From Candidatus Scalindua sp. (GTDB taxonomy: Bacteria; Planctomycetota; Brocadiia; Brocadiales; Scalinduaceae): DNA of 34,482 bases. Below, in pieces: positions 22,948 through 34,356 of this stretch; position 1 is the stretch's first letter, and each line of letters opens with the position of its first letter. The position numbers and the translations under genes were made by a program. The notes beneath the pieces are model-generated. The model ran no database searches. It was not told where the DNA came from and saw nothing but the letters and a program-made list of their open reading frames with translations. The stretch is taken from contig JAIQZU010000042.1 in the NCBI GenBank assembly GCA_021776915.1, forward strand, positions 1 to 34,482. Direction: 5' to 3'.

Positions 22948-23898
22948 CTAAAACAGATTCTTCCGGATGCCCATATTATCAGGGCATAGGAGTAAATGCC
23001 ATATTAATAGTTTATGATATTTCAATAATCTATTTCTGAGTTTCTCGTTCTGAAACAGGGTTATCAGGTTGCCAATAATATTCAGTAAAAGGTTTATGAA
23101 TATCTTGCACGGCTTCAGAATGCGGATTAAAAGGTATGAAACAGTACATCTGTTTTTTTTGAAAAACTTGTAGAGAGATTTATAATATTCAATTTGTGAC
23201 TCTCCGGGCGTCTTTTTCTTACTGTGACCTGAAAGATGAAAAACTCTGGAGTCCGGAACATGATAGACCTTCCATCCTTTTTTGCTCATCCTGAAACACC
23301 AATCAGTTTCTTCAAGGAAAATAAAGTACTCTTCGTCAAGGAAGCCTACCGAATCCATAGCCTCTTTCCTGACCATCATACACGCCCCTATCACTGAATC
23401 TACCTCTATTGGAGTATTATAATTCACGGCTTTACCCGGATATTTATTTGGAAAAATCATGCGAAGGATGCTTTTGTTAAGGAGTTCTGTTTCCAGTGAA
23501 GGAAAGTTGTCTATTGAATTCTGCCTTGAACCGTCTTCATTTAAGAGTTGGACCCCGGCAATTCCAGCTCCTGGAGTATTTACCATAAAGGCCAACAGGC
23601 TCTTTATTGCGCCTTCCTGCAGGACTGCATCTGAGTTGAGAAGTACGGCGAATCTTCCCTGCATTACGTTTAGGGCCTGATTGTTTGCGTGGGCAAAACC
23701 GGTGTTTGTACTGTTCTCAATAAGCTTTACGTCTGGGAATCCATTTTTTACTGCATCCTGGCTTCCGTCTGTTGAATTATTATCAACTACATATATCTCC
23801 TGGTCAATGTCCGTTACGGTCTTATAAATTGAATTCAGACAATTTATGAGGATATCACGGGTGTTCCAGTTTACGATTATGAAGGATATATCTACCAA
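22948..23898 (-). CDS. Family 2 glycosyltransferase, rhamnosyltransferase-like
   Basis: This cytoplasmic or membrane-associated inverting glycosyltransferase has 316 residues. The GT-A core shows SFIIVNWNTRDILINCLNSI, YVVDNNSTDGSQDAV, the metal-binding LLNSDAV and the acceptor-side EEYFIFLEETDWCFRMSKKG with W and ED residues. These features are typical of WbbL/RfbF-like enzymes that act on polysaccharide intermediates. The C-terminal 75 residues are basic and hydrophobic and may bind the membrane. The start is TTG at 23898, the first start after an in-frame stop. It overlaps the kinase-domain gene by 7 bp, so the two are translationally coupled. Confidence 0.92.
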   Translation of the reverse strand: MVDISFIIVNWNTRDILINCLNSIYKTVTDIDQEIYVVDNNSTDGSQDAVKNGFPDVKLIENSTNTGFAHANNQALNVMQGRFAVLLNSDAVLQEGAIKSLLAFMVNTPGAGIAGVQLLNEDGSRQNSIDNFPSLETELLNKSILRMIFPNKYPGKAVNYNTPIEVDSVIGACMMVRKEAMDSVGFLDEEYFIFLEETDWCFRMSKKGWKVYHVPDSRVFHLSGHSKKKTPGESQIEYYKSLYKFFKKNRCTVSYLLIRILKPCKIFINLLLNIIGNLITLFQNEKLRNRLLKYHKLLIWHLLLCPDNMGIRKNLF

Positions 23899-25583
23899 TC
23901 TTCGCTTACATCTCCATTAAATGAGACATAGAGTATTTTCTCTGTCTTGCTGAGATTTATTATTTCCCTGAGTATGCTTTTCTTTTCATATATTATATTA
24001 CATTGCTTCAGGTATTCCTTTAAGAATCTTAATCTATCCGTTGTCGAAATAAGTTTCGGAGTAGACAGGTTCATCTGTGTAAGATTTTTTATCCTTTTCC
24101 GGATAGTTACTTCTTCTTCAAAAGAGACTTTATCAAAATCAAGGAATGTGATATGGAATGATTTGTCATTTTCTTTCATCATGATATTACACGTCTTCAA
24201 ATCATGATGGAAAATATTCCGGTTGTGCATCTCCCCAATAGTCTCTGCAAGATTATTTATAAGTACCCTTTTCTTTTTCAACTTACTCAATGATGGTTTA
24301 TCATGAAAATTCTTCAATATGTATCTGTCCATCTCCAGGCAGTCTCTGGCGTATTCCATAACCAGGTAGCTGTCTGTAGTGATCCATAATACCTTCTTTT
24401 CCATTAATGCCAGTGGCATAGGTGTGTTGAAGCCGTATACCAATAATCCATTACCGGCAATCCACGCCTTCTTTCCTGCAGAATTACGGAAGATATTCCT
24501 TATAAGGCATATTCCACAACTTACCTTATATTGTTTTACTACAACACTCTGAGTTTTCTCATTTTCAAGAGGTAATCTGGTCAAGGCAGTCTTTGAGTCG
24601 CGCTTCATGACTATGGCCTTATCACCATTTACCAATGCATTATGATGTTTCTCTATCAGCCCCGCAAAGCGGTTTGTATCATAACCTTTTCTGAAAAACA
24701 TCTTCATGCCGGCAGACCTTTTCTTTGAAAAGGCGCTGCTTTCCTTCACACATCTTTTCAATCTGCTTTTATAATGGATATTCCTTATCCTTGAGGATTG
24801 CGATTCTATTTGTCCGACTAGTTCGTTTTCATCAGTAGTGCTACTAAGAACATTAACCCCATACGATCTAAGAAAATCTAATTTGTTGGTCTTTGTCAGT
24901 ATGGATGATAATGAGTTGAAAATCTGTGCAAGATTGTGCAGTCTCTTACGAAATGGCATTCTCTTAAGAATTTTCACGCTGTGAAGGTCCATTAAGTAGA
25001 GGTCGCAATCATAAATTGAGGAGGTTTGATTGTTCTTGAATCTTATCAGTATGTTGCCGGTATGAAGGTCATAATGACAAAAACCTTTTTCATGAATATC
25101 CCTTATAAAGCCTGCCAGTTTACGCAACAACTTTCTTTTCTCGGTTTCCTGCTCCACTGACAAAGCGCCTTCGAAGTTGGCCTGGCAGAATCCCATAAAC
25201 TCTTTACTGTTTGTAACCGCCTCTGTAACCAACAGGCTGTAAGTCTTTTTCTTCACCATTGCAAGCGGCAAGGCAGTATTGATATTCTTACATAATAATG
25301 CGTTGCCAACCTCCCACTCAGTCCTGATCCTGGTTGGTACAAACAGATACTTTACGTAATCTCGATAGCCACCTCTCTTGAAATATTTAATATATATTCC
25401 ATTTTCGTTTATATCGGTAACCGGCATTGAGATTACTGACCGTACCCTGTTTTCCTTTATTAATGTATAGTTCTCACCGTTTATGCCAGAACGGAAATTA
25501 TCAAGGTTTATCTTGTCCGTAATGCTTTCGTACCCTTCCCTTACCGTCCACTCTGCTACATTCTTTACGGTACTTATTGACAT
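23892..25583 (-). CDS. Protein with two tandem LPS-kinase (WaaP/KdkA-like) domains
   Basis: The 563-residue soluble protein is made of two related protein-kinase-fold domains of the Kdo/heptose kinase family. Domain 1 (about 30-245) has the ATP lysine K66 (IYIKYFKRGG), NTALPLAMV, catalytic HYDLHTGNI with D172 and N177, and the metal site MDLH with D199. Domain 2 (about 325-540) has K350 (VVVKQY), the family segment SAGKKAWIAGNGLL, NTPMPLALM, HHDLKTCNI with D461 and N466, and LDFDK with D482. Both look active. Family members phosphorylate sugars of the lipid A-core. Two domains could serve two positions or substrates. It is coupled to the GT2 gene downstream. About 290 bp separate it from the upstream GT39 gene. 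Confidence 0.85.
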   Translation of the reverse strand: MSISTVKNVAEWTVREGYESITDKINLDNFRSGINGENYTLIKENRVRSVISMPVTDINENGIYIKYFKRGGYRDYVKYLFVPTRIRTEWEVGNALLCKNINTALPLAMVKKKTYSLLVTEAVTNSKEFMGFCQANFEGALSVEQETEKRKLLRKLAGFIRDIHEKGFCHYDLHTGNILIRFKNNQTSSIYDCDLYLMDLHSVKILKRMPFRKRLHNLAQIFNSLSSILTKTNKLDFLRSYGVNVLSSTTDENELVGQIESQSSRIRNIHYKSRLKRCVKESSAFSKKRSAGMKMFFRKGYDTNRFAGLIEKHHNALVNGDKAIVMKRDSKTALTRLPLENEKTQSVVVKQYKVSCGICLIRNIFRNSAGKKAWIAGNGLLVYGFNTPMPLALMEKKVLWITTDSYLVMEYARDCLEMDRYILKNFHDKPSLSKLKKKRVLINNLAETIGEMHNRNIFHHDLKTCNIMMKENDKSFHITFLDFDKVSFEEEVTIRKRIKNLTQMNLSTPKLISTTDRLRFLKEYLKQCNIIYEKKSILREIINLSKTEKILYVSFNGDVSEDW

Positions 25584-25875: not shown

Positions 25876-27507
25876 TTAATCCTGCACTTTGTTGGAAACA
25901 AAGACTAATTTTCTGTGGCCTACAGAATCACTTAATAACATATGTACAGGCACTTTAAGCCATTTTTGTATATCGTTTAAAACATTTGGTTTTATGATTA
26001 AATACCTTCTTTCTTCTGAGTTAAAGAAATGGTTAATTTCAACAGGATTCTGGACAATCTTAATATATTTTCTACCTGTATAAAAGAGATAAGCTTCCTT
26101 ATGAAAGCCAAAGATAGCAAGCTTCTCTTCCGGTTCCATAATAGCATTTATCTTTGTGCAGAAAGGCTTGGCAGATTTCTTTGTGTTCATTTCAGGAATT
26201 ACTATCTTAACACTCAATATGAATATGATCAGTACTGCAAGAAATATAGACATCAAGGAAGCAAATATCTTTTTGCGATATAGAAATACAAGTGACAAAA
26301 TTGATACACTTATGCACGTTGTAGAAATTATTACAGAATAGATAATCTTTTCCGGGAAATAAGTATCTACTACGAATGGCAAGCTTATGCCGGCAACAAT
26401 TATAAAGCCAAAAAGAACATAACCGGGTATGCAAATAATCCGGTGAAACTTATTATTCTCAGGATTCAAAACCATAGAATCAAAAAGCCATGCAACCAGT
26501 AATGAAGCTGCGGGATAAAGAGGCAGCAAATATCTACCCTTCTTTCCAGACGCTATCAAAAAGAAAACAAAAACAGCAACAAACCACACAAATGGAAAGT
26601 GGAAACTCCGAAATTCTTTACTCTTCTGTTTTATACTGTAGATTATGACACCAGGGATAAATAAACTCCACGGCATAAATTCCATCGGAAACCTTGTGAA
26701 ATAATAATAAAAAGGCTCTTTATCCTTCCACGAATTAAAAAATCTTCCCATGATCTGGTTATTGAAAATTTCATTCACATATTCCCTGTTACCCTCGAAG
26801 GACGCTAAAATAAACCATGTAAAAACTATAATTGAAAATACAACGCATCCTCTTCCTATAGCCATGTAACGGTAAAGCTTAAGTTTCCTTTCCATTGCAA
26901 GAAAGGATACTATTGTTATCACCGGTAGAATAAGTCCAAGAGGGCCTTTGGTCAAGACTGCCAGTCCCATAAATACATAAGAAAGCAGAAAAAGTATTGT
27001 CCTTTTCGAATCCCTGGAATAGCCTGAATAAAAACACAGAAGAGACATAGTAATTAAAAATGTAAGTAATACATCAAATGCAGATCTTCGTGCTATCCAT
27101 AGAAAGTTGACATTAGTAGCTAATATTAAGGCCGCAATTATTCCTGTCCTCCTGGAAAATATAGATTTACCCAGAAAAAAAACAGCTACACAACAACCAA
27201 TTCCTGCCAGGGCAGAAGGCAATCTGGCAGAAAACTCTGTTACCGTCTTAAATGGCATGGAAAAAAGATCAATTAACCAGAATAGCAAGGGTGGTTTGTC
27301 AGGGTATATCTCTCCATTTAAACGAGGGAGAATAAAGTTTTTACTCTCTAACATTTCCAATGCTACCTGGGCATAGCGAGGCTCATCAGGTGCCCAGAGA
27401 TCTCTGTTGCCCAGATCAAAAATAAACAGAAACCCTGTAACAATAACCAGAAATGTAACCTGAATATGAGTGTGTCTCCAGAAATAATTTACAACAATCT
27501 TGCTCAT
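25876..27507 (-). CDS. GT39/ArnT-like polyprenyl-phosphate sugar transferase
   Basis: This integral membrane glycosyltransferase (GT-C fold) has 543 residues and about 11-12 hydrophobic segments. The catalytic first periplasmic loop contains NRDLWAPDEPRYAQVALEML, the acidic motif of the ArnT/PMT family. A second conserved loop motif is LPRLNGEIYPDKPPLLFWLI. The C-terminal 100 residues form a soluble periplasmic domain. Family members move a sugar from undecaprenyl phosphate to lipid A or another surface acceptor. It is third in a set with a DPM1-like GT2 that would make the lipid-linked sugar and a LAB_N protein, 111 bp after the latter. The sugar is not predictable; aminoarabinose is unlikely since no arn genes are near. 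Confidence 0.92.
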   Translation of the reverse strand: MSKIVVNYFWRHTHIQVTFLVIVTGFLFIFDLGNRDLWAPDEPRYAQVALEMLESKNFILPRLNGEIYPDKPPLLFWLIDLFSMPFKTVTEFSARLPSALAGIGCCVAVFFLGKSIFSRRTGIIAALILATNVNFLWIARRSAFDVLLTFLITMSLLCFYSGYSRDSKRTILFLLSYVFMGLAVLTKGPLGLILPVITIVSFLAMERKLKLYRYMAIGRGCVVFSIIVFTWFILASFEGNREYVNEIFNNQIMGRFFNSWKDKEPFYYYFTRFPMEFMPWSLFIPGVIIYSIKQKSKEFRSFHFPFVWFVAVFVFFLIASGKKGRYLLPLYPAASLLVAWLFDSMVLNPENNKFHRIICIPGYVLFGFIIVAGISLPFVVDTYFPEKIIYSVIISTTCISVSILSLVFLYRKKIFASLMSIFLAVLIIFILSVKIVIPEMNTKKSAKPFCTKINAIMEPEEKLAIFGFHKEAYLFYTGRKYIKIVQNPVEINHFFNSEERRYLIIKPNVLNDIQKWLKVPVHMLLSDSVGHRKLVFVSNKVQD

Positions 27508-27618: not shown

Positions 27619-27894
27619 CTAGGAATTATCCACTGTCTTTTTCTTATATATCAAGGCAAGGTTTCTAAAGTAAATAAAGAGCCCTGTACATTGGCCAAGA
27701 ATAAACACAGGATCTTTCCTGTGGATAGCATAAGAAAGTAAAACTGCACTCCCGCCGATACTCAGATACCAGAAGGCCAAAGGTATAACACTCTCCTTCT
27801 TTTTTTCTGATGCTATCCATTGAATAAGAAATCTGGAACCAAACAAAAGCTGGCCAACAAAACCAAAACACATCCAAAGATTAAGGCTATTCAT
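27619..27894 (-). CDS. LAB_N (lipid-A-disaccharide synthase N-terminal) domain membrane protein
   Basis: The 91-residue protein has three hydrophobic segments and the LAB_N signature: FGSRFLIQWIASEKKKESVI, then PLAFWYLSIGGSAVLL and a final GLFIYFRNL. The domain is named for its fusion to LpxB, but it more often occurs alone beside GT2 and GT39 genes. There it is suspected of handling polyprenyl-phosphate sugars, for example in flipping. Its start overlaps the upstream GT2 stop by 8 bp, so the two are translationally coupled. This supports a joint role in delivering the lipid-linked sugar to the GT39 enzyme. Confidence 0.9.
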   Translation of the reverse strand: MNSLNLWMCFGFVGQLLFGSRFLIQWIASEKKKESVIPLAFWYLSIGGSAVLLSYAIHRKDPVFILGQCTGLFIYFRNLALIYKKKTVDNS

Positions 27895-28597
27895 CTCTCA
27901 CCTCATAATAAAGTTTACGTCTTTTCATCCATCTTACTGCCAGCAGGTCTAAAAAAGACTTGAAGATTCTATTTCTTACGTTGTATTTTGATTTTCCGAA
28001 TACCCTGGGATTGTGTTTTACCTTTACCTCCTTAACAGAGAATCCTTCCATTTTGAATAACGTGGGTAGAAAACGATGCATTCCGTTATACAACTTAATT
28101 TTATTTAAACACTCCCTGCGAAATATCTTTAAGGAACAACCTGTGTCTTTTATATTCTCGCTGGTTAGTTTATTCCTGACATAATTTGCTACTTTACCGG
28201 ACACAATCTTAATTAACGGATCCTGTCTCTTGAAGCGCCAACCATATACCATGTCATAACCATCAATTTCTGCAAAAAGTAATGGAATATCAAAAGGATC
28301 GTTTTGTAAATCAGCATCCATCATTACAATATACTTCCCCCTTGAATCCTTGAAGCCTGCATCCAGAGCAGCAGTCTGTCCGCAATTTTCTCTTAATCTG
28401 ACAATTCTGAAATTATTATACTCGACACATACATTCTTCATCTCTTTGTGGCTATGATCCGTACTGCCATCATCTACAAAAATACTTTCATAAGAATATC
28501 CAATATCTGACATTGCCCTATGTATTGCAGACGAAAGTACAGGAATATTTTCTTCCTCATTAAATACAGGAATTACTATAGATATCTCAGGTTTCAT
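27887..28597 (-). CDS. DPM1-like polyprenyl-phosphate GT2 glycosyltransferase
   Basis: This cytoplasmic-face enzyme would transfer a sugar from a nucleotide donor to undecaprenyl phosphate. The 236-residue protein has EISIVIPVFNEEENIPVL, VDDGSTDHSHKEM, the metal-binding MMDADLQNDPFDIP and YGWRFKRQDP. It lacks the two C-terminal membrane helices of ArnC and GtrB, so it is a DPM1-type minimal enzyme. It probably leans on the LAB_N protein at the membrane. It heads the set GT2-LAB_N-GT39, with 253 bp of non-coding DNA upstream that should contain its promoter. Confidence 0.92.
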   Translation of the reverse strand: MKPEISIVIPVFNEEENIPVLSSAIHRAMSDIGYSYESIFVDDGSTDHSHKEMKNVCVEYNNFRIVRLRENCGQTAALDAGFKDSRGKYIVMMDADLQNDPFDIPLLFAEIDGYDMVYGWRFKRQDPLIKIVSGKVANYVRNKLTSENIKDTGCSLKIFRRECLNKIKLYNGMHRFLPTLFKMEGFSVKEVKVKHNPRVFGKSKYNVRNRIFKSFLDLLAVRWMKRRKLYYEVRDE

Positions 28598-31106: not shown

Positions 31107-32543
31107 TTAGCCAAGTTTTATATCTTTTGGAAGTTTTATTACAAATGTGCTGCCAACTCCTAACTTACTTATAACTTCTATTTTTCCTTTATGGAGATCT
31201 GCTATATTTTTACAGATATTAAGCCCTAAACCTGTTCCGCCTGTTTCCCTGGATCGTGAAGGATCAACACGAAAGAAACGATCAAAAATCTTTTCGAGAT
31301 GGTCTTCATACATGCCTATTCCAGTATCCTCAATACGGACTATAACCTCATCTTTGCCATACCCCAGAGAGACGTTAATACAACCACCCGGTAAAGTATA
31401 TTTAATGGCATTGTCTAATAGATTTGAAAATACACGTCTTAATAATGTTTCATCCCCGTTGACTTGAACGTCTTGTATTCCACTAACTGATAACCCTATC
31501 TTTTTTGAATCTGACACCGGCCTGAATTTATTTTGAAGTTCCTTCAGCATATTGCTCAGATTGAATGCTTTCAGGTGCAAGATGTCTGCACCTGAATCTG
31601 ACCTTGAAAGCGCTAATAAATCACTGATCATCCTGGCCATTCTTTCAAGAGCAATTAAATTATCTTCGTGTAATCCACGATACTCTTCCACCGTCCTCTC
31701 CTTTGAGAGAATGACTTCAGTTCCGGTCTTAAGAGAAGCAATTGGAGTCCTGAGTTCGTGAGAAACATCCGACGTAAATTGTGTTATCCTATTGAAAGAC
31801 GCTTCAATTCTGTCGAGCATAAGATTAATGGTTTTTGCCAATTCATCCAGTTCATCTCCAGTTTCTGCAGACACAAGCCTTGCATTCAAAGTTGATGAAT
31901 TTATTTCCCGTGTATTTTCGATTATCTTTTTTATCGGAGACAAACTCTTTCTCGAAACTAACCAACCTCCGATAATACCTAATATAATGAATACCGGCAC
32001 TAACATTAAAAAGTTTTCTTGCATATTTTCTACTGTTTTATATGAGAGCCTCATATAAATACCAATCTGAAGAATATACTTACAAGAATTATCAACCTCT
32101 ACATATCTTGTTATTAAGCGGTATGGAATCCTTAAACCTTCTACCCATATACTTGATAATGTATTTTCTCCTTTTATCGCATTTGCAATGTCATCATCAG
32201 AAATCTTTAAGTTTGGAGCAAAAAAATTCTCGGAACTAATGAAGGTGTTTTGTTCAATATCATACAATCTTATTGATGCTCTCAGGTACTTTTGGCTGGA
32301 AGACTCTATATTTATCATCTTTTGTAAATCACTAACGGAGAAATGGAAACCTTTAATACTGTCCAGCACATCTTCACTTACATCAAATAAAATGCGATCT
32401 GTTTCCTTATTAAGCGTATGTCTTAATCTATAATACATAAAGATGTCAGTGGAAAGCAGTATTAAGATAACTGATAATGAATACCATAAAGCAATCCTGA
32501 CGCTGATAGTTTTGAATAATCTAATCCTGCTCTTCGAGGACAT
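31107..32543 (-). CDS. Sensor histidine kinase, CusS/heavy-metal-sensor-like architecture
   Basis: The protein has about 478 residues. TM1 (about 18-38) and TM2 (about 178-197) bracket a 140-residue periplasmic domain without a recognised fold. HAMP follows (SLSPIKKIIENTREI). The dimerisation helix carries the phosphorylated His in SDVSHELRTPIASLK. The ATPase domain has NLLDNAIKYT, DTGIGMYEDHLEKIFDRFFR and GGTGLGLNICKNI. The order of parts is like CusS/CopS-type kinases, but no metal-binding residues can be named. I prefer ATG at 32543, with GGGGTGCAGGA upstream, over GTG at 32552. The start overlaps the regulator gene, so the two are coupled. Confidence 0.95.
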   Translation of the reverse strand: MSSKSRIRLFKTISVRIALWYSLSVILILLSTDIFMYYRLRHTLNKETDRILFDVSEDVLDSIKGFHFSVSDLQKMINIESSSQKYLRASIRLYDIEQNTFISSENFFAPNLKISDDDIANAIKGENTLSSIWVEGLRIPYRLITRYVEVDNSCKYILQIGIYMRLSYKTVENMQENFLMLVPVFIILGIIGGWLVSRKSLSPIKKIIENTREINSSTLNARLVSAETGDELDELAKTINLMLDRIEASFNRITQFTSDVSHELRTPIASLKTGTEVILSKERTVEEYRGLHEDNLIALERMARMISDLLALSRSDSGADILHLKAFNLSNMLKELQNKFRPVSDSKKIGLSVSGIQDVQVNGDETLLRRVFSNLLDNAIKYTLPGGCINVSLGYGKDEVIVRIEDTGIGMYEDHLEKIFDRFFRVDPSRSRETGGTGLGLNICKNIADLHKGKIEVISKLGVGSTFVIKLPKDIKLG

Positions 32544-33195
32544 ATCCTGCACCCCTTCTTGTATGTATGAGTTTTACACCAAAGTCCTTATCAATCTTAT
32601 TTCTCAGCTTGGCAATGTGAACGTCTACTACATTGCTGAAGCTTTCAAAATTTGAATCCCATACATGCTCAGAAATCATTGTCCGAGTCACAACCTGACC
32701 GGCATTGTGCATCAAATATTCCAGGAGGGAGAATTCAATTGGAGACACCTCAATCTTTTTTCCTTCCCTGAATACTTTTCTGACTATTGGATCAAGTGTT
32801 AAATCAGCTACTTTTAATTCTGATGATGTCTTATGACTACCCCTTCGCAGGCAGGCACGGACGCGAGCTAATAATTCATGAAAAGAGAAAGGCTTGACTA
32901 TATAGTCATCAGCCCCGATATTTAATCCTGCAACTTTATCCTCCGTTGAATCCTTCGCTGTCAGAAAGATTACTGGCGTAATAATTCCGGCGCTTCGAAC
33001 ATGTTTAAGGATTGTAACCCCATCATGTTCAGGCAGCATAATATCCAGTATCATAAGGTCGTAAGCCTCATGTGTTGCCAGATGCAGGCCATCCGTACCA
33101 TTAAGTGCAAGATCCACTACATATGAGCTTTCTTCCAAACCTTTTTTGAGGTATCTTGCCAGTTTCTCTTCATCTTCTACAATCAGGATTCTCAT
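32521..33195 (-). CDS. OmpR/PhoB-family response regulator
   Basis: The 224-residue protein has a receiver domain with acidic pocket EDEE (residues 7-10), phospho-acceptor D51 in LMILDIMLPEHDG, the conserved Thr/Ser region FLTAKDS and K in IVKPFSFHELLAR. A winged-helix DNA-binding domain follows, with EVSPIEFSLLEYLMHNAGQV, VDVHIAKLRNKID and the wing TRRGAGYVLEE. Members bind direct repeats as dimers. Eleven-base-pair direct repeats lie 43-75 bp upstream of its own start, which suggests autoregulation. It is the first gene of the regulator-kinase-methyltransferase unit and sits 81 bp after a heptosyltransferase gene. Confidence 0.97.
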   Translation of the reverse strand: MRILIVEDEEKLARYLKKGLEESSYVVDLALNGTDGLHLATHEAYDLMILDIMLPEHDGVTILKHVRSAGIITPVIFLTAKDSTEDKVAGLNIGADDYIVKPFSFHELLARVRACLRRGSHKTSSELKVADLTLDPIVRKVFREGKKIEVSPIEFSLLEYLMHNAGQVVTRTMISEHVWDSNFESFSNVVDVHIAKLRNKIDKDFGVKLIHTRRGAGYVLEEQD

Positions 33196-33276: not shown

Positions 33277-34356
33277 TTAATGAAGTGATTTAATGGAAGT
33301 CTGGTTGTGTTCTTTTCTCGAATTTAATACGTCGATACATGTCTCTACAACATTTTCGGGTGATATCCGGATCATGCAACGGTGGTCAGTAGGGCAAATC
33401 TTAAGCTGGCATGGTGAGCAATCAACATCTTCCCTTATAACCTTGCCAATCTCATATTCAGATTCTGCATATCTAGGATCATTAGAACCCATCAGCACGA
33501 CAACGGGCCGATTAAGCGCTACTGCAAAATGTCTTGGTCCTGAATCCAACGTTATTAAGAGCATACACCGCTTTACGATTGCCTTAAAGACATCAAGGGA
33601 GATTGAGGCCCTTGAAAGATTGATTAAGCCTTTTTTAGATAATCCCTCTATTTCATCAGCAAGCTCTATTTCGCCAGGACCTGAAGTCAGGACTATGTTA
33701 CAATCAACAGATTCTTTTAATAAATCTGCTGTTCTGGCAAACCCATCCGCAGTCCAGAGTTTTGCAGAACCGTAAGATGATCCCGGACTTATCAGGATAA
33801 AGGGTTTTTTATCAATATTGTATTTTTCTAATAACTCATTCGCACTACCTTCACATTCTCTGGAGATAAACAACTCCAGCTTCTTAGACCCTGTTTTGCA
33901 TCCAAGTTGAGTACATAATCTCAGATAATAATCTCCCATATAAGTTGGCAGAAATTTTCCGTTTTCACTCAGCCTATCTATGCCGTCTGTCAACAAGAGA
34001 GAACGGGCGTCGCGCCTGTATCCAATGCGTCTGCTCACACCGCCCAGCCACACCATAAGAGCGGAACTGAATGAATTAGGAAACAAAAATCCCAGATCGA
34101 ATCTTTCCTGCCTGAGCTTGTAGATTAAGCGTAAAAAATCCTTTGTACTTCTCCTCCCGGGCTCAAATTCAATAACCTCATCAAACCAGGAAGAACTGTC
34201 TATTATGCCTCTTAAATTCTTCTTAATCAGCAAAGTTATCTGCGAATCGGCAAAGTTCTCCCTGATACACCTGAATGCAGGAGTTGCCATCACAACATCA
34301 CCGACCCAATTGGGTGCTCTGACAAGTATTTTCTTTGCCTCAATTATCTGTTCCAT
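33277..34356 (-). CDS. ADP-heptose:LPS heptosyltransferase (GT9, WaaF-like)
   Basis: This cytoplasmic GT-B enzyme adds heptose to the inner core of LPS. The 359-residue protein has ILVRAPNWVGDVVMATPAFR at the N-terminus, GGVSRRIGYRRDARSLLLT, FILISPGSSYGSAKLWTADG in the nucleotide-sugar site, and LITLDSGPRHFAVALNRPVV followed by MGSNDPRYAESE. These features fit heptosyltransferase II best. The C-terminal segment has several cysteines (CSPCQLKICPTDHRCM), a pattern also common in this family. It is the most upstream gene of the minus-strand envelope region in this window and may be preceded by its own promoter in the AT-rich 34357-34482 segment. Confidence 0.93.
   Translation of the reverse strand: MEQIIEAKKILVRAPNWVGDVVMATPAFRCIRENFADSQITLLIKKNLRGIIDSSSWFDEVIEFEPGRRSTKDFLRLIYKLRQERFDLGFLFPNSFSSALMVWLGGVSRRIGYRRDARSLLLTDGIDRLSENGKFLPTYMGDYYLRLCTQLGCKTGSKKLELFISRECEGSANELLEKYNIDKKPFILISPGSSYGSAKLWTADGFARTADLLKESVDCNIVLTSGPGEIELADEIEGLSKKGLINLSRASISLDVFKAIVKRCMLLITLDSGPRHFAVALNRPVVVLMGSNDPRYAESEYEIGKVIREDVDCSPCQLKICPTDHRCMIRISPENVVETCIDVLNSRKEHNQTSIKSLH

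Follow-up and report, generated by a model that had tools for sequence, protein, structure and literature searches.

The stretch of DNA analysed here, called the window, comprises 34,482 nucleotides of a Candidatus Scalindua sp. contig (JAIQZU010000042.1) and carries on its minus strand a gene cluster of the lipopolysaccharide (LPS) type. The genes are arranged in the order of a GT9, a response regulator, a histidine kinase, two methyltransferases, an ArnC-like GT2, an ArnT-like transferase, a tandem kinase, a GT2 and an antiporter. The head of the cluster is a heptosyltransferase-family GT9 gene (33277..34356, minus strand; PF01075, 100 bits). The ArnC-like GT2 (27887..28597, minus strand; NF007986, 136.5 bits, below the cut-off of 529) is followed by the ArnT-like membrane glycosyltransferase (25876..27507, minus strand; PF13231/PF02366; NF009784, 161.6 bits, below the cut-off of 567), which is located upstream of the tandem kinase gene, and the GT2 glycosyltransferase gene on the other side (22948..23898, minus strand; PF00535, 80.6 bits) overlaps the kinase gene by 7 bp, an overlap found also at the second genomic copy described below. 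The histidine kinase and response regulator form a two-component pair (31107-33195), placed after the GT9 gene and before the remainder of the cluster, and envelope-stress control of the cluster by this pair is possible.

The genome of the window contains a second copy of the tandem kinase with 79% identity (G000:C77:62369-64075; L037:7355-9079), surrounded by genes in the order of GT9, tandem kinase, GT2 and antiporter. It is possible that this copy belongs to a co-binned contig; however, since WaaA, the Kdo transferase, occurs only once, the copy is more probably a true paralogue than a product of two genomes broadly mixed. This WaaA and eight matches to the heptosyltransferase family GT9 make a Kdo/heptose-type core pathway plausible in the genome. 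In addition, the presence of LPS-insertion and outer-membrane machinery in Planctomycetes including Kuenenia and Scalindua has been argued (PMC3422733).

The tandem kinase is encoded by an open reading frame (23892..25583, minus strand) which begins with ATG and has 563 codons and no internal stops. The 563-residue protein matches the Pfam Kdo/WaaP family (PF06293) with 105.1 bits over two stretches. When the halves are run separately, residues 1-283 (the N-half, 24735..25583) give 55.2 bits (E 8e-15) and residues 284-563 (the C-half, 23892..24734) give 53.7 bits (E 2.5e-14), so each half alone exceeds the curated cut-off of 21.3 bits more than two-fold. From the alignment, the N-half has the full set of phosphotransferase residues: the ATP lysine K66 (25386..25388, WaaP K51), the alpha-C glutamate E89 (25317..25319, WaaP E78), the catalytic loop H170-Y-D172-L-H-T-G-N177, with HYD at 25068..25076 (WaaP H161-R-D163) and N177 at 25053..25055 (WaaP H168), and the metal aspartate D199 (24987..24989, WaaP D188). 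The C-half has the ATP lysine K350 (24534..24536), the loop H459-H-D461-L-K-T-C-N466, with HHD at 24201..24209, and the metal aspartate D482 (24138..24140). When the halves are aligned to each other, K66 and K350, H170-x-D172 and H459-x-D461, N177 and N466, and D199 and D482 share columns. Among the core landmarks, the halves differ only at the alpha-C glutamate, where the N-half has E89 and the C-half A373 (24465..24467).

For the whole protein, AlphaFold gives a mean pLDDT of 91.5, every residue reaching at least 50, and a pTM of 0.84, and the order of kinase elements appears twice in the model. The C-half modelled alone has a pLDDT of 94.9. For the full-length model and for that of the C-half, the best PDB match is WaaP (6dfl), with target-normalised TM scores of 0.75 and 0.70, respectively, and 6dfl is also the first match of the sequence profile of the C-half (E 2.7e-19). 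As far as these models go, the protein holds two complete kinase folds, of which the nearest solved structure is WaaP. The earlier note, made from the letters of the DNA, had claimed two full LPS-kinase-like domains in one protein, both of them keeping the ATP lysine, the HxDLxxxN catalytic loop and the metal aspartate, and these claims are borne out by the PF06293 scores, the modelled folds and the residues aligning between the halves; the alpha-C glutamate is not among the residues it lists. The note would have given way if one half lacked a usable ATP site in a structural model; at the level of the fold, two full kinase domains are predicted. Chance or a pseudogene is excluded by dN/dS values of 0.10-0.38 for both halves in every computable pair, one N-half comparison being saturated, and by conservation among the 64 tandem homologues aligned.

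By model score, both halves are closer to WaaP than to KdkA. The RfaP model of NCBIfam (NF011703) scores 112.8 bits with the whole protein, 65.7 with the N-half and 53.6 with the C-half, and the KdkA model (NF002475) scores 60.3, 26.1 and 37.3 bits, respectively, that is, RfaP outscores KdkA in both halves, all of these scores lying below the equivalog cut-off of 170 bits for RfaP and the cut-off of 142 bits for KdkA. The equivalents of five WaaP residues (K51, E78, H161, D163 and D188) are all present in the N-half, and that of E78 is missing in the C-half. A protein Ser/Thr or regulatory kinase unrelated to LPS is also conceivable from weak partial matches to PF00069 in the two halves (26.9 and 28.2 bits, under the cut-off of 31.7); however, PF06293 is stronger in both halves, WaaP is the best structural match and the gene resides in glycosyltransferase clusters, so this alternative is very improbable.

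The genome also has a single-domain relative (contig C36, L036:4747-5637), whose neighbours include a GT9 and a PlsY-like gene and which is KdkA-like by score (KdkA 90.3 versus RfaP 51.4 bits). Because of this separate gene, the Kdo step is less likely for the tandem protein; the single-domain gene is the likelier Kdo kinase, and a Kdo step, if there is any, would be assigned to it. The KdkA-like kinase has Arg at the position of the ATP lysine (ARDY), as do its relatives at other loci. KdkA identity of the tandem protein is rejected on the model scores and the separate gene. In a wider form, the tandem protein might be a KdkA-like Kdo kinase or a kinase of another envelope glycan rather than a heptose kinase, since the KdkA model matches both halves, the cluster has ArnT/ArnC-like and other glycosyltransferases, and the S-layer of Kuenenia is heavily O-glycosylated (PMC5088730). 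However, the higher RfaP scores of both halves and the distinct KdkA-like gene beside GT9 in the same genome make this improbable. Among the 64 listed tandem-kinase genes, the next gene upstream is a WaaG-like GT4 in 20, a WaaF-like GT9 in three, a WaaC-like GT9 in two and a WaaQ-like GT9 in one, and a gene like those of the E. coli waa cluster is absent directly upstream in 36. The waaG-waaP adjacency is found in E. coli K-12 as well.

The history of the halves was examined by a tree of 84 domains, built without the longest branches. The N-halves are on one side of a branch together with E. coli WaaP (SH-aLRT 97), the C-halves are on one side of another together with stand-alone proteins of the Desulfomonile type (support 99), and six KdkA-like single proteins form a separate group. 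A fuller tree, in which the branches of E. coli InaA and WaaY are too long for a placement, shows a matching pattern, both trees being quick ones whose deep order is unsafe. Recent internal duplication is rejected because the N-halves of distant lineages cluster together, apart from the C-halves. The simplest reading of these trees is that two different kinase types were fused once, long ago, and under a single fusion the Desulfomonile proteins, which lie within the C-clade, would have lost the N-half. The stand-alone C-type proteins exist beside genes for a lipid A acyltransferase, GT9 and GT2, and therefore the C-type domain probably works alone.

Named close relatives in a species-level genome collection belong to Candidatus Scalindua (Ca. 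Scalindua arabica, 80% identity), followed by Brocadia, Kuenenia, Loosdrechtia and Anammoxibacter, all of them anammox Planctomycetota; the window genome is thereby of a Scalindua-type anammox bacterium. Matches at E <= 1e-3 were obtained in 57 of the 59 relatives, and they are near full-length in most of the order-level relatives. Of 149 Planctomycetota genomes drawn evenly, each at least 80% complete, 68 have the tandem, defined as a match over at least 440 of the 557 profile positions. Full-length tandem proteins occur beyond the phylum too, in loci labelled Deltaproteobacteria, Pseudomonadota and Thermodesulfobacteriota, and consequently the architecture is a widespread one and not a singular event of this genome. 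Relatives of the tandem protein on plasmids were searched for and gave weak partial matches only. Thus the earlier note was right that the strong divergence of the halves points to an old duplication or a fusion of two kinases, the tree favouring an old fusion of different types; that the arrangement is peculiar to this genome is not supported, as it is common in Planctomycetota. The note would also have given way to an identical architecture already characterised, and no description of a tandem LPS-kinase architecture was found in the literature searched, most subscription papers being outside its scope. For all its age and its frequency in Planctomycetota, the architecture seems not to have been studied.

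The active sites of the two halves are conserved in different ways. Residues were tallied in 67 N-rows and 67 C-rows, two of each belonging to a second kinase-like ORF, of doubtful status, that was present in two loci. The N-rows have K-E-H-D-N-D in 34 of 67 and K-E-H-E-N-D in 19 (HGELHAEN, the Brocadiaceae type, with HGE in place of HYD), and in 11 the His of HxD is replaced, in several lineages outside the main Brocadiaceae clade. The change of the catalytic Asp to Glu in the N-half is found in nearly every Brocadiaceae sequence sampled, and the Glu state forms one clade in the tree. In the C-rows, the catalytic H and D and the metal D are intact in nearly all of the 67, and 59 carry Ala or Ser instead of the alpha-C glutamate. 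Across the 64 tandem proteins aligned, N177, D199, H459, D461 and D482 are invariant. Judged by sequence, what the N-half always retains is the predicted Mg ligands and not the catalytic base, and what the C-half always retains is the predicted catalytic base and not the alpha-C glutamate. A change of the HxD Asp to Glu is expected to cripple phosphate transfer. However, pairs of Brocadiaceae N-halves give dN/dS of 0.17-0.31, that is, purifying selection, so the N-half does something in Brocadiaceae.

The WaaP of P. aeruginosa gives a measure of these residues. Growth is not supported by K51A, H161A, D163A or D188N, E78A raises EDTA sensitivity 128-fold, and each of Y165, H168 and R191 is needed for growth (PMC6147952). 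The C-half is probably weakened or re-wired rather than dead, because of this phenotype of E78A and because the stand-alone homologues share the alpha-C change. The equivalents of Y165, H168 and R191 are missing from the window N-half, which has H174, N177 and S202 instead; S202 and H174 at the R191 and Y165 positions call for caution in assuming the acceptor of WaaP. Arg at the R191 position (DLHR) is seen in many relatives and in the second genomic copy.

Some variation of the gene was observed besides. In comparisons with L002, L007 and L008, dS is lower in the C-half (window 23892-24734) than in the N-half, 0.34 versus 0.75 against the C77 copy, and the lower dS suggests that the 3' part of the gene may have undergone recombination or gene conversion. 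In Scalindua relatives (L011, L012, L013, L015, L019 and L020), loops of the tandem kinase are extended in frame by insertions tens of residues long, and the window copy has none. The inserted peptides resemble SPPLQGGERGEV, and several have the palindromic DNA CCTCCTTNNNAAGGAGG. Exact copies of this palindrome are located inside the tandem-kinase gene in three of three cases in G006 (G006:C282:6929, 7037 and 7673), and one of three copies in G010, one of 12 in G013 and one of 14 in G014 are inside that gene. The palindrome CCCCYTNNNAGGGGG, a first guess for the loop insertions, gave no match. Furthermore, two loci (L111:12192-14153 and L114:12319-14151) have a second large ORF near the tandem-kinase gene, with a C-terminal kinase-like match only and a WaaC-like GT9 gene between.

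What follows on whether either site is active, which acceptor is used and how the halves share the work is inferred, and we hold the whole with somewhat better than even confidence. The protein would be a tandem kinase of the cytoplasm that takes part in assembling the LPS inner core. It would descend from a single ancient fusion, in which a WaaP-type heptose-kinase domain (the N-half) was joined to a distinct WaaP-family domain (the C-half), and it would phosphorylate the core heptose region on the lipid A-core intermediate bound to the inner membrane. The C-half would be the conserved catalytic engine. In the Scalindua lineage, the N-half with its full set of ATP-site residues would probably be a second active kinase; in Brocadiaceae, where the aspartate of HxD is lost, it would probably be a pseudokinase, that is, an ATP-binding, regulatory or scaffolding domain. 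In favour of this reading are the RfaP scores, the structural matches to WaaP, the tree and a core-assembly context of GT9, WaaA and upstream WaaG-like genes; against it stand the half scores below the RfaP and KdkA cut-offs, the missing alpha-C glutamate of the C-half, S202 and H174 in the window N-half, and the 36 genes with no waa-like neighbour directly upstream.

Two neighbouring readings have to be weighed against this division of labour. The protein may be a bifunctional enzyme, of which the halves phosphorylate different hydroxyls or core sugars (e.g., HepI and HepII), like the separate proteins WaaP and WaaY which E. coli uses for this. The Scalindua halves both keep K, HxD, N and D, the N-half also the alpha-C glutamate; moreover, the halves are different kinase types, which suits different acceptors, and both are under purifying selection. 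However, the N-half has lost the catalytic Asp in the main Brocadiaceae clade and the HxD His in several other lineages, in the window it is without equivalents of WaaP R191 and Y165, and the C-half is without the alpha-C glutamate. Accordingly weighed, bifunctionality is a real but less than even prospect: two working kinases in one Scalindua protein are possible, and two phosphorylations by one protein in Brocadiaceae are unlikely. Conversely, the protein may be a pseudokinase-kinase pair throughout, Scalindua included, in which the N-half, with ATP bound, would serve to activate or position the C-half and would transfer no phosphate. In the N-half, conservation extends to K66, E89, N177 and D199, some of them invariant, and not to the catalytic Asp and His, and purifying selection on this half persists after the change of Asp to Glu; but the canonical HxD is kept in Scalindua and many other lineages (the KEHDND rows), and the stand-alone C-type proteins manage without an N-half, so this is rather unlikely. 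A heptose-region kinase with an N-half of lineage-dependent role remains our preferred reading.

In the outer membrane, the phosphates of the LPS core serve for cross-linking by divalent cations, and P. aeruginosa cannot live without them. On the LPS chemistry of anammox bacteria nothing was found in the literature searched, and whether and how their core is phosphorylated is not described in the papers found. The fused pair is a direct handle on core phosphorylation in these bacteria, and the preferred reading predicts that the enzyme carries out two phosphorylations in Scalindua and a single one in Brocadiaceae. More broadly and only tentatively, a family of fused kinase pairs would build the LPS-core phosphate pattern in anammox bacteria and other Planctomycetota, ranging from two active sites (Scalindua) to a pseudokinase controlling its partner (Brocadiaceae), and it would provide a natural kinase-to-pseudokinase series inside one protein family.

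Among known systems, the closest is the heptose(I) kinase WaaP/RfaP (6dfl of P. aeruginosa and b3630 of E. coli), which phosphorylates O4 of HepI. Its fold is like both halves and it shares K, HxD and D with them; a likeness specific to the N-half is the DLH metal motif with the alpha-C glutamate, and WaaG-like and GT9 transferases are near the gene in many relatives. However, WaaP is one domain of about 265 residues and here two domains are fused; besides the three substitutions of the window N-half given above, the C-half has Ala for the alpha-C glutamate and DFD for DLH. The C-terminal helical subdomain of WaaP is known for tight acyl-ACP binding, and the C-half stretch DRLRFLxxY resembles the WaaP segment DKLRFLRTY, a likeness of sequence only. 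The Kdo kinase KdkA (NF002475) belongs to the same superfamily and matches both halves weakly, below RfaP and far under its cut-off. The stand-alone C-type kinases of Desulfomonile and relatives lie inside the C-half clade and, like the C-half, have the HxDLKTCN loop and lack the alpha-C glutamate, but they are single domains of about 300-346 residues without an N-half. In P. aeruginosa, PA5006 is a putative LPS kinase gene of the waaP-wapP-wapQ operon whose protein reaches at least residue 493 (PMC8707732); at this length it could be a tandem, and it may be an uncharacterised Pseudomonas analogue. Outside LPS biosynthesis, JAK JH2-JH1 and FAM20A-FAM20C are kinase-pseudokinase pairs, in which a catalytic kinase domain is partnered by a degenerate one that binds ATP. 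The proposed Brocadiaceae forms would resemble them by analogy of mechanism, not by evolutionary closeness, and, if this is true, they would be the first kinase-pseudokinase tandem in LPS biosynthesis.
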